Below are positions 2,217 through 8,562 of a stretch of DNA of 10,167 nt, piece after piece (within the stretch, counting starts at the first letter, position 1; every line of letters starts with the position of its first letter). The position numbers were made by a program, and so were the translations under genes. The stretch covers positions 1 to 10,167 of the forward strand of contig JALZWJ010000323.1 in the NCBI GenBank assembly GCA_023300065.1. The letters run 5' to 3'. Source of the stretch: Akkermansiaceae bacterium. Lineage in GTDB: Bacteria; Verrucomicrobiota; Verrucomicrobiia; Verrucomicrobiales; Akkermansiaceae. Below the pieces are notes generated by a model. It saw only the letters and a list, made by a program, of their open reading frames with translations, did not search any database and was not told the origin of the DNA.

Positions 2217-5180
2217 CTATTTCGAAATCGACGGGGGATAGAGGCGGTGGACTTCGCGGGGTGGGAGTGGGTTGGTGAACCACGTTCCTTTGAGCGGTGG
2301 GGCGAGGTGGTAGAGCTGCGTGGGATGTGCGGAGCGCAGGGTGGTCCAGTCCGCTAGGATCCTTTCGGGTGGGATTGGTCCGCGATAGATCGCGAGGGCT
2401 TGATTATTCTCATCGAGAAGGATGGCAAGCGGCACGGTGCTGGCGGGGGTGCGGTCAAAGAGTTGTGCCTGGAAGTCAGCGAGCTGAGTGAGGGCTGCTG
2501 GGTGGAGCGATCCGGATGGGTCGAGGAACGCGGAGGACTTGATGAGGGCGCGGGCCTTTTCTTGATCGGAATCGACGGAGAGGGCTAAGATGCTGAGTTG
2601 GGCGGCTCTGAAAGCCGAGGCTTGAGAGGCTAGGAGTGGGAGTGTTTTTCGACAATGGCTGCAATGAGCGGACCAAAGGTAGAGGAGGCGCGGGGCGCGT
2701 GGGAGAGTGGTTTTTTGCTCAATTCCTGCTCCATTTTGATAGCGGAGGTCTGGGAAAGGGACACGGGCGGGGAGGATGATGTGAGCTTTGCCATCATCAC
2801 GGAGTGCGATGGGTGAGGTTTTTAGGGGGAGGGTGATGGCGGAGCGCGCGGGGAGGGGGATGGCTTTAGCGCTTCCTTCTTTGAGGAGAATGCGGCCTTT
2901 GCTCGGGAGGTTTTTGAATTCCTCGATCACTCCGCCGGGCCAGATGACGTGGGCCGATCTGGGGTGCTCATTTTTACCGGTCCCAAAGTGTAACCATTTG
3001 CTCGATTGAGAGAGGAATAGATCGCCCGCGCGCACGGAGCGGATGAGGCGTTCTTCTTTAGCTCCTTCTTTTTTGGTCGGCAGGAGTTCGACGACTGCGC
3101 CGATTCCATCGCGGTTTGAGCGGGTTCCTTCGAGTTTGATGAAAAGGGCCGATCCGGTATCGCGTTCGTTCCTCATGAAGCGGAGGCGGGGAGCATTCCG
3201 GTTTCGATACCAGAGGTCGAGCCGCCCGTCCTGATCCCAATCGACGATGGCGAGGGCGCGGCCGTCTTCGGCTTGGTCGAGTCCCGCGAGGTGGGACATT
3301 TCGTGGAAATATCCATCGGCGCTATTTCGAAAAAAGCGATTCCGTTCGTTCCCGCTCCACGAGTGACCATTGCGAACTAGTTTCATGAGATCGGCCCAGC
3401 CGCGCGCGTATTGGGATTTTTCTTCGGAGGGCGACACGACCTGTCGCCAGAAGAAACTTCACAAGTCATTGTCGCGCGTGTTGGTGAGGTAGCCGTTTGC
3501 CACGATGATGTCCTGCCAACCATCGTTATCGAGATCCGCGAGGGCACTGCTCCAAGCCCAGCCCCCATTCGTGAGGCCGGCGCTGATGCTCTGATCTTGG
3601 AAGGTTTTTCCGGTGGCGGTGAAGAGGCTATTTCCCCGCGCCATGCGCGTGAGGTTTTTATCGAACCCTTGCTGGCTCGCGACGCGGCGTCCGGCAGATG
3701 AGAACATGTTTCCGACGAGGAGGTCGGCGGAGCCATCGCGATTGGGATCTCCCCACGAGACTGACATCCCGGCTCCGATGTCTTCGACGCCCGCTTCTTT
3801 TGCAATGTTAGTGAAGCGGCCTTTGTCGTTTCGATAGAGGCAATTACGGCCGAAGTCGTTTGCGACGTAAAGGTCTGGATCGCCATCGCGGTCGATGTCT
3901 TCCCACGCTGCTGCGAAGCTCCAGCGAGTGTTGTCTTGATCCAGCCCGACTTGGCGAGTGACATCGGTAAAGCGGAATTGGCCAAGGTTCGCGAGGAGGA
4001 TATTTCGCCCGCCATTCTTGGCGTCATCGAAGGGGGCGGGGGAGTTGGCCTCGAAGCCTCGCCTGCCCGCTCCGACCGCATCTCCGGCGCTGTAAAGGCA
4101 GGTGTAAATATCAAGGTCACCATCGCTATCAAAGTCCGCTGCGCTGAGTGAAAATGGATAAGGAGCGCCGGGGAAGCCGCCCCGGAGTTCGAATTTTCCA
4201 GCCCCATTATTTTCGGCGAAAGCGATCATCGCGATGGTTGCCACGACGAGGTCTTGATCACCGTCGTTGTCGAGGTCGATGAGTAAGGCTCCTCGGGAAT
4301 CTTCTAGCCAAGCAACGCCCCAATCTGCCGCGACCTCGTTTGCGGTGCCATCGGGTTGTTGGAGGTAGAGTTGATTCGGGAGACTCCCGCCATCGCAGAC
4401 GTAAAGGTCCTCCAGCCCATCGCCATTCACATCGCCGACCGCGATGCCGTGGTGACCTGTCATCGCGAGGTCCCCGATGCGGGTGATGCGCTGCGTCCAG
4501 AACTCCATCCCGCGCAGGACTTGGGGCGCGAAGCGTGGGTTATGTCCGATGACTGAAGTCGTCTGGTCAGCCATCCACGGCTTCGTTTCGGTTGAGCTGA
4601 TGGTTTTAAAATGCTCCACCGCGACCTTTGTGAGGCGGGGTGGGGTTTCAGCATTCCAGGTGCACTGCCATGTTGCGGAATACTCGGCCCGTTGCGGCAC
4701 GGTGCGGTCGGCCTCGACATGGAGCTGCGTCGTGAACTTACGATTGTCGATGATCTTGATCTTAAGTTTCCCTAGCTCCCTGAGTTGCTCGGCGAACTCT
4801 TGAACGGTCCTTTGCTTGAGTATACCACCGGTTCCCTGCTGCACGGCCCCTTTTTTCGGAGAGATGGGAGCTTCCAGATCTGAAGACTGGAATCCCTTGG
4901 CCAAAACCTCTCGGACATCACCGGCGGCGAGCTTCGTGAGCTGGGCTTGCGCGAGGAGGGCGAAGGTCTCGCCCGGCCAGCGCTGGTTGGGGAGGTTCGC
5001 AGGGAGCTGAGTTTGAACGGGAGCTTTGGAAAGGGAAGTGGAGTCTTGGACCTCCTCTGGAATGCGGTCGGGCCGCGCCATCTCTTTCAACCGGAGCGGG
5101 ATCAGGGACTGGGCCCCGACAGGCCAACTACCGCCGATAAGGAGGAGCGCAGCGATTGTCAGAAAGGTTCTGGATTTCAT
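2217..5180 (-). CDS. Exported FG-GAP repeat / ASPIC-UnbV protein with C-terminal thioredoxin-like domain; in-frame UGA, candidate selenoprotein
   Basis: One continuous frame of 987 positions is broken only by a TGA at codon 574 (3459-3461). Residues 1-23 form a Sec signal peptide (likely cut after VGA). Residues about 60-200 are an unrecognised N-terminal domain. Ca2+-type DxDxDG loops start at residues 250, 302, 349, 428, 478, 549 and 647, as in FG-GAP/VCBS beta-propellers. An ASPIC-UnbV block (NRDGIGA...WPGG) spans about 685-756. A thioredoxin/TlpA-like domain follows, with CSHC at 840-843 and a cis-Pro candidate at 917. The UGA falls inside the family block NDL-X-SFFWRQVV, linking the sixth loop to the rest, so two separate genes are unlikely. 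Upstream cysteines are 173, 262, 361 and 447. Translation probably couples to coaB through the ATGA overlap. The likely site is the periplasm or outside the cell. Domain assignments are firm; function is unknown. Selenocysteine at 574 is inference from the SECIS-like hairpin; the alternatives are a pseudogene or a base-call error. Confidence 0.85.
3419..3461 (-). promoter_or_regulatory. In-frame UGA followed by a candidate bacterial SECIS element
   Basis: Reading the minus strand: UGA (3461-3459), AG, lower stem UUUCUUC (3456-3450) pairing with GAAGAAA (3425-3419), unpaired U3449, upper stem GGCGACA (3448-3442) pairing with UGUCGCC (3436-3430), and apical loop GGUCG (3441-3437). Four bases (3429-3426) are unpaired on the 3' side of the internal loop. 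All 14 pairs are Watson-Crick. The apical loop begins 17 nt after the UGA, is 5 nt long and opens with GG. These values fit the published bacterial SECIS pattern as I recall it (loop 3-14 nt, 16-37 nt from the UGA, a G in the first two loop bases). The GGUC in the loop matches the E. coli fdhF element bound by SelB. No selA, selB, selD or tRNA-Sec lies in this window, so host competence is untested. Confidence 0.65.
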
Positions 5181-7920: not shown

Positions 7921-8562
7921 ATGTCTCAATGCCCTGTCATCATTACTCCGAAGTTGATTCGGCGCCATAACCTCCGTTGTGGTGGGCGGATTGTGTTGTG
8001 GGCGCTGGGGGCGGGGGCGGTGTTTCTCATCGTGTTTCTTTTCCTCTGGGTTCTGGCGAGTTTGGTGACGGGGAGTCGCGCGCTCACTTTGCCGGTAGCG
8101 GTAGGGGCCTCTGCCTTTGGGATCGCCGTTTTTTGGGCGGGGCATTTTCATCTCAAAAAGAATGGCCCGCAGAATTGGGAGCGCATTGCCCAGAAGCCGG
8201 AGCGCGGGCCGGGGATGCGTCTCTCGCGGCTGAGTGGTCAGGAATATGGACAAGCAGGGCTGGGGCTCCTGGGCCTGATTCTCGCCGGTCCAAGCTGGCT
8301 AGGGCGAATCGGAGATGACTACCGCAGCATCCTCCCCGCCACTCAAGAAAATGCCGATGAGTTAGAGCAACTCCGCCACCACCTCGCGGCCCGTGATAGC
8401 TGGGTCCCCATGAAGGATTTCGCGGCTCACGAGGACGGGATCTACCGGCTTGCGAAGCTCAATATCCTCGCGATCCGTGAGCTTCTGGGGGAATGGCATT
8501 TTCATGTCACGGTGGAAGGCTCGGTGAGTCGGACTGAATCCGCTGCAGAAATCGAAGCGTGA
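7921..8562 (+). CDS. Hypothetical membrane protein, no family recognised
   Basis: A 213-residue protein that I do not recognise. A short basic N-terminus (KLIRRHNLR) precedes two likely transmembrane helices at about 24-49 and 56-76. A glycine/leucine-rich hydrophobic segment at 111-127 could be a third helix or a re-entrant or amphipathic stretch. The rest (about 130-213) is soluble and charged, with a helical acidic stretch (ENADELEQLRHHL) and a final part rich in Glu and Ser. The ATG at 7921 is the first start after an in-frame TGA (7912-7914); no clear Shine-Dalgarno is seen. It follows the lipid kinase by 36 nt on the same strand without a terminator, so it is probably in the same transcript, suggesting a membrane or lipid-related role. 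That role is inference only. Codon use and base composition look like those of its neighbours, supporting a real gene. Confidence 0.75.
   Translation: MSQCPVIITPKLIRRHNLRCGGRIVLWALGAGAVFLIVFLFLWVLASLVTGSRALTLPVAVGASAFGIAVFWAGHFHLKKNGPQNWERIAQKPERGPGMRLSRLSGQEYGQAGLGLLGLILAGPSWLGRIGDDYRSILPATQENADELEQLRHHLAARDSWVPMKDFAAHEDGIYRLAKLNILAIRELLGEWHFHVTVEGSVSRTESAAEIEA

Follow-up and report, generated by a model that had tools for sequence, protein, structure and literature searches.

Bacterial selenoproteins in the 2026 catalogue (PMC13188914, Table 1) have in common an in-frame UGA, a bacterial selenocysteine insertion sequence (bSECIS) hairpin directly 3' of it, a genome with selA, selB and selC and, in some cases, homologues with cysteine (Cys) in place of selenocysteine (Sec). 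Most of the characterised ones have a thioredoxin-like fold (PMC13188914). The common features, with SelB seen as an N-terminal fragment, recur for a gene found in a 10,167 nt stretch of contig JALZWJ010000323.1 (here called the window) of an Akkermansiaceae metagenome-assembled genome (MAG; GCA_023300065.1). The gene lies on the minus strand at positions 2217..5180, encodes 987 residues when read through one TGA, codon 574 (3459..3461, minus strand), and ends in TAG. It differs from the catalogued selenoproteins in that its inferred Sec lies in a beta-propeller with no UxxC or CxxU arrangement around it, and N, S or A often takes its place in homologues. By domain content, the closest described proteins are the CRTAC1/ASPIC-UnbV FG-GAP proteins and the TlpA/ResA thiol-disulfide oxidoreductases. 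The profile alignment to murine CRTAC1 (PDB 9etn) omits the Sec block of the window protein, and the thioredoxin-like domain falls outside the aligned part. Profile and fold searches both match that C-terminal domain, which has a CxxC, to TlpA and to ResA, but it is fused to the propeller, Sec is outside it, and its scores fall well short of the NCBIfam cut-offs for either. Against the TlpA equivalog NF047696 it reaches 29.2 bits (cut-off 230), so a TlpA-like domain is present but the protein is not TlpA. Sequence comparisons lead us to conclude that TGA 574 is almost certainly decoded as Sec by SelB and tRNA-Sec via the hairpin 3' of it, and that the gene encodes an exported selenoprotein from a family absent from the catalogue.

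As an earlier note on this DNA had recognised, the TGA at codon 574 is the only internal stop in the minus-strand frame 5180..2217, and 413 codons separate it from the TAG. The note had also held that TGA is not reassigned. Four other genes in the window, one of them ORF 7921-8562, terminate in TGA, so TGA is not a general sense codon here and general reassignment of UGA was rejected. Three of the four are presumably a NUDIX gene, a coaBC-like gene and maf.

Alignment of relatives gave 156 distinct sequences, counting the window, with TGA at the codon-574 column; they come from 68 genomes and 6 further records. Every stop aligned to this column was TGA (162/162). These sequences come from two site sets. 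The first comprised 606 aligned sites, of which those with TGA in the column and Trp within the next ten residues were retained (140, 134 unique). In the second, Trp is 3–5 residues downstream in 63 of 87 sites, and rows one codon off ('L' in the column), rows starting in a gap, rows with E > 1e-10, L249 and duplicates were removed. The final combined set had 156 TGA rows and 16 rows with a sense codon. TGA-bearing sequences were from Verrucomicrobiota and Acidobacteriota, with one locus each from Planctomycetota, Latescibacterota and Gemmatimonadaceae. Among the loci of the best 80 of 491 relatives in the genome scan, column TGA was found in Verrucomicrobiota and in single records from Latescibacterota, Gemmatimonadaceae, Chloracidobacterium and Planctomycetota. 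In the taxonomic family of the window, 92 of 260 genomes had a match, with up to three candidates scored per genome, and at least 46 had an internal-TGA row among the matches listed; fetched loci confirmed the position of the TGA at the column for all 46. Matches were found in 87 of 387 genomes drawn from the phylum of the window, and the only one outside the family with long TGA matches was G572. In Acidobacteriota, to which the Chloracidobacterium record L019 belongs, 273 of 396 genomes had a match, 43 had a row with a single TGA at E <= 1e-80 (counted by hand among the matches listed), and the column TGA was verified in 21 fetched TGA loci. Some rows have an additional TAG or TAA elsewhere; for three such rows (G176:C62, G242:C125 and G209:C266, fetched as L208, L221 and L224) the column codons are TGA, TGA and TGC, respectively. 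The close relatives examined retain both the TGA and the hairpin. The window is from a fragmented MAG (414 contigs), and the earlier note had allowed for a base error in sequencing or assembly. Recurrence of the same TGA in other genomes, in 156 distinct sequences and at places that in some cases (L265 and L266, for example) lie more than 1 Mb inside a contig, speaks against this and makes such an error vanishingly improbable.

Database entries treat the codon as a terminator. When the N-terminal 573 residues were used as the query, the best 120 of 4465 scored proteins, including the window's own, all stopped at -DL, directly before codon 574, and downstream a GTG could begin a 406-residue open reading frame. 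P0125, encoded on a 6.3-Mb contig of Verrucomicrobiaceae bacterium 227, is a 575-residue relative of the N-terminal part with 71% identity, and it too ends at the column. With a true stop, the product would be a 573-residue propeller fragment, and what follows would be either a pseudogene or a gene translated on its own. However, this would cut the propeller between the FG-GAP blades and the UnbV/ASPIC part, and as the GTG is inside a conserved WRQVVSP block, a start there would lose conserved residues. Downstream of the TGA, the window gene and L096 differ at 133, 109 and 209 first, second and third positions, respectively, in 394 codons, an excess at third positions, and we conclude from this comparison that the coding sequence on both sides of the TGA is under codon-level selection. 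As selection on both sides, the uniformity of the column stops and the association with selA described below all count against it, a true stop is very improbable. Because codon 574 marks the end of all the top 120 matches to the N-terminal half, annotation is probably wrong for many entries, which lack the detached UnbV/ASPIC and TlpA-like half.

The element proposed to direct Sec insertion is a 38 nt stem-loop (3419..3456, minus strand) that begins 2 nt after the TGA. Folding bore out most of the earlier description, namely the 2 nt offset, two 7 bp Watson-Crick stems and a GGUCG loop 17 nt from the TGA. That description had overlooked that the single unpaired U faces four 3'-side bases, CUCC, that are unpaired as well, so that a 1x4 internal loop separates the stems. 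The conserved core (3430..3448, minus strand) is the upper 7 bp stem, GGCGACA/UGUCGCC, with the GGUCG loop, which relatives retain, while the lower 7 bp stem varies among them. The minimum free energy (MFE) of a 43 nt stretch is -16.7 kcal/mol, compared with a mean of -9.1 for shuffled sequences (z -3.1), and that of a longer 63 nt stretch is -18.4, with a z of only -1.1. The bacterial SECIS model in PMC13188914 specifies a loop of 3–9 nt, a stem of 4–16 bp and a G within the first two loop positions (section 5, Fig 2 legend), as well as a distance of 16–37 nt from the UGA and an MFE <= -7.5. The window hairpin lies within these published rules, with a loop of 5 nt, a stem of 7 bp, a spacing of 17 nt and a hairpin energy of -11.2 kcal/mol. 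For counting, the rules were coded with a hairpin energy <= -5 kcal/mol, or -7.5 in a stricter variant. A hairpin of this kind followed the TGA in 136/156 sequences, a sense codon at the column in 3/16 and random codons of the same genes in 242/1463; at <= -7.5 the corresponding counts were 102 of 156, 2 of 16 and 99 of 1463. One sense-codon homologue, L015, also folds (-13.3), by chance.

The apical stem occurs in two registers. In class I it is GGCGACA-GGUCG-UGUCGCC, with GUCA/UGAC and GCCA/UGGC changes, and in class II it is GCGCAC-GGUC-GUGCGC, or AGCAC-GGUC-GUGCU with altered amino acids. Covariation was examined in distinct 36 nt strings, with relatedness remaining in the shuffles. Cells changed on both sides of the stem numbered 20 in class I (103 strings) and 6 in class II (17 strings), above all 1000 shuffles in each class (maxima 13 and 4, respectively). 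The view of the earlier note that coding constraint accounts for only part of the pairing was confirmed by synonymous resampling, with codons drawn from each gene's own usage. In 134 TGA sequences, the mean uninterrupted apical stem was 5.43 bp, compared with 1.93 bp after resampling (replicate sd 0.10), and the MFE of 42 nt was -11.9, compared with -9.0, and a hairpin arising from coding constraint alone was rejected. The Val-Val codons of the loop are GTC GTG in 128/133 TGA genes and in 0/11 sense-codon genes, and when 87 conserved columns are ranked by codon bias, codons -1, +1, +7 and +8 fall within the top six. On this folding and comparative evidence, we conclude that the hairpin is a SECIS element. 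Codon bias in the 156 TGA genes extends outside the conserved hairpin, with TTG at -1 (0.69, background 0.13) and AGT at +1 (0.78, background 0.14).

The earlier note had called for a search for the sel genes, and its expectation held for tRNA-Sec and selA and, in part, for SelB. The genome of the window contains a tRNA-Sec with anticodon TCA (54.4 bits), selA (483 bits, cut-off 267.9) and, at a contig end, the N-terminal part of a protein that we call SelB from its sequence (141 bits, below the 242-bit cut-off). We discarded the top match to the selB family in this genome (182 bits), which is EF-Tu. The SelB N-terminus, in G000:C300 (L088), continues near the contig end into what we take to be transporter-like sequence; this junction looks like an assembly chimera or break.

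Within the family, selA was found in 44/46 genomes with a TGA gene, compared with 26/214 of the others (Fisher p 6e-29, uncorrected for relatedness; some of the 214 may carry TGA genes outside those scored or listed). The two TGA genomes in which selA was missing are G201 and G184. Among genomes reached through individual loci, selA was present in 9/9 TGA genomes, four of them from other phyla, and also in G572. As they share selA coordinates, L009, L010, L012 and L013 are the same genomes as G236, G229, G237 and G231, respectively, and the independent additions to the selA count are L011, L016, L017, L019, L021 and G572. The selA of G616 has an internal TAG and that of G572 is in two pieces. 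In genomes reached via Cys or Ala homologues, selA was found in one of four. A tRNA-Sec scoring >= 50 bits was found in 31/46 TGA genomes. Genomes with selA and no tRNA-Sec >= 50 bits are G236, G237, G194 and 10 other TGA genomes, and here incomplete assembly or the limits of the search may be responsible. Conservation of the TGA, the SECIS element and co-occurrence with selA together strongly support the inference of a selenoprotein made in the earlier note.

That note had also asked whether homologues have Cys or TGA at position 574. TGA is present in 156 sequences, most of them with the hairpin, and Cys in a few (L022, L224, L237, L246 and P0017); other residues are found elsewhere: 120 protein-database homologues have N (52), S (34), A (26), G (4), D (2), C (1) or E (1). 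Sense-codon FG-GAP-ASPIC proteins (e.g. P0009, P0046 and P0070) share the SFFWRQVV block, the propeller and an aligned thioredoxin-like domain with the window protein. They differ in having N, S, A or G for Sec and in having mostly lost the CxxC; most have TPR domains, and they are acidobacterial where the organism is given. In a quick tree of 150 rows, which included 60 of 86 picked TGA rows, Sec requires six changes, the Cys rows are beside or within Sec lineages, and 76 rows with N, S, A, G or E form one clade, though the deep parts are unsure because of long branches. Homologues with N, S, A, G, D or E indicate that the position is tolerant, as would suit readthrough of the UGA in which a suppressor or near-cognate tRNA inserts another residue and the hairpin acts as a general readthrough signal. 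The tRNA-Sec, selA and SelB fragment in the genome, the agreement of the hairpin with the published bSECIS model (PMC13188914), the strong co-occurrence of selA and TGA, the Cys homologues and the use of TGA to terminate other genes all argue against this, and we find it scarcely credible.

Several observations weigh against decoding as Sec. The SECIS rule as coded failed in 20/156 TGA sequences, and in 54/156 at -7.5. Fewer than 4 bp were found in both registers in 19/134, though a shifted register allows pairing in some of these. In the covariation test, the number of extra pair types was matched by 3 and 5 of 1000 shuffles in classes I and II, respectively, and the number of pairs with a change on both sides by 33 and 10. 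In the window's own genome SelB is an N-terminal fragment only. The search for SelD, also expected in the earlier note, did not find it in this MAG (65% complete) and yielded two weak matches, one of 26 bits. The other weak match looks ThiL-like, an identity that we assume, and was discarded. No tRNA-Sec match >= 50 bits was found in 15/46 TGA genomes, including G237, which is 97% complete; 14 of the 15 were rechecked with up to 135 candidates scored in each. G184 (83% complete) has TGA at the column in L225 (G184:C390) with neither a matching hairpin nor selA, and L225 is a broken gene, has a divergent SECIS or comes from a genome with missing machinery. Conversely, L075 (G620), an Ala-type homologue, is in a genome with selA, so the absence of Sec there is not explained by absent machinery. 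Finally, N, S or A replaces Sec far more often than Cys in the protein search, which is unusual.

From N- to C-terminus, the product of the minus-strand gene comprises a signal peptide, an N-terminal domain, an FG-GAP/UnbV-ASPIC beta-propeller and a TlpA-like domain. The signal-peptide-like N-terminus (5112..5180, minus strand; MKSRTFLTIAALLLIGGSWPVGA) was judged by eye. The propeller is CRTAC1-like, with FG-GAP repeats, and covers residues ~201-770 (2871..4580, minus strand) by profiles and the predicted model; the window protein belongs to the CRTAC1 propeller fold. The earlier assignment to FG-GAP/ASPIC-UnbV proved correct, as both Pfam domains score above their gathering cut-offs (FG-GAP repeats 141.4 bits, cut-off 26.9; UnbV_ASPIC 47.1 bits, cut-off 23.4), the latter at residues 692-761 (2898..3107, minus strand). 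In the predicted model (pLDDT 87.9, pTM 0.90), residue 574 is the first of a helix, 574-582, that is inserted in the propeller, and the surrounding sequence is DDL-U-SFFWRQVV. Certain Trp residues co-occur with Sec among relatives. The TlpA/ResA-like thioredoxin domain, identified by profile and fold, occupies residues ~808-935 (2376..2759, minus strand), and its CxxC motif, CSHC at residues 840-843 (2652..2663, minus strand), is the proposed partner of Sec574.

This CxxC is intact in 116/125 Sec rows and in 3/124 non-Cys sense rows, when rows with >= 330 residues past the codon are counted (125 of the 156 TGA rows) and a single sense row gapped at the motif is left out. The comparison suggests that Sec574 and the CxxC may form a relay. 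The link is weakened by phylogeny, as it represents 2-5 independent tree pairs, too few for significance once relatedness is taken into account. The main rival on function is that Sec574 acts chiefly by binding a metal or a substrate within the propeller and not as a redox centre. FG-GAP blades bind Ca2+, and D, N, S or C is found at the column in homologues. Approximately 20% of known selenoprotein families are predicted to bind atoms or groups, ~70% of those with metals (PMC13188914). However, Sec begins a helix and is found together with an intact CxxC in the fused domain, which a pure ligand would not require, and we think a ligand role rather unlikely.

In the mechanism that we propose for a Sec-containing redox protein, SelB with Sec-tRNA would bind the GGUC-containing hairpin and Sec would be inserted at the UGA, as in the known system. 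The exported protein would display Sec at the start of the helix on the propeller, where it may serve as the reactive centre for redox chemistry in the periplasm or outside the cell. Oxidised Sec would be reduced after each turnover by the fused CxxC domain, a role suggested by the co-occurrence of the two. The chances appear to us evenly balanced that the family comprises widespread, heavily expanded, exported two-site selenoenzymes, in which the propeller Sec is recycled by the TlpA-like CxxC, that it was overlooked because databases end the proteins at the UGA, and that, given at least 17 paralogues in one genome, some Verrucomicrobiota may rank among the most selenoprotein-rich bacteria.

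The earlier note knew of no description of such a selenoprotein, which is consistent with the 2026 catalogue. No FG-GAP, UnbV, ASPIC or CRTAC family is among its 119 prokaryotic families and subfamilies (PMC13188914 Table 1) or was found by these terms in its main text. In the open-licence literature, preprints excluded, a TGA-bearing propeller family was not found in the accessible parts of PMC12013277 and PMC4807772 or by terms in PMC9312934, though absence there is not proof, and none of the papers listed for the function of bacterial UnbV/ASPIC proteins addressed it. With the window protein as the query, NCBIfam 20 returned no selenoprotein model for the propeller plus TlpA-like arrangement, and the WAxxUGC model scored 12.5 bits against the thioredoxin-like part (cut-off 300). 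We conclude that this is a new family within the bacterial selenoproteins, and a structurally distinct addition, with Sec in a beta-propeller and not in a thioredoxin fold. It would give the FG-GAP/UnbV-ASPIC proteins, which are little understood, a link to redox chemistry and to the supply of selenium in Verrucomicrobiota and Acidobacteriota. U574, C840 and C843 are candidate residues for tests, and the natural series from Sec to Cys, Ser, Asn, Ala or Asp offers a handle on why Sec is kept or lost.

The gene neighbourhood of the TGA loci gave no clear functional hint. In L009 and L010, a DUF1501 gene is upstream of the TGA gene and close to it, with a PSCyt2/PSD1 gene farther out on that side, and a DUF1501 relative is found in seven further TGA loci (L013, L097, L099, L103, L104, L106 and L144), some of them from the same genomes. 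The window gene adjoins coaBC and does not share this pattern.

Several genomes contain multiple copies. Column-verified TGA paralogues among the fetched loci number at least 17 in each of G237 and G194, at least 11 in G236 and at least three in the window's genome; these figures are minima, from genomes picked for their many candidates. For comparison, deep-Sep reports a bacterium whose selenoprotein genes, when all families are counted, number at least 46 (PMC12013277). The paralogue loci of G237, G194 and G236 include L097, L126 and L130 and extend to L170. At first look, G572, from another family of the same phylum, had 62 candidates and G939, from the Acidobacteriota search, had 134, of which at most two were scored.

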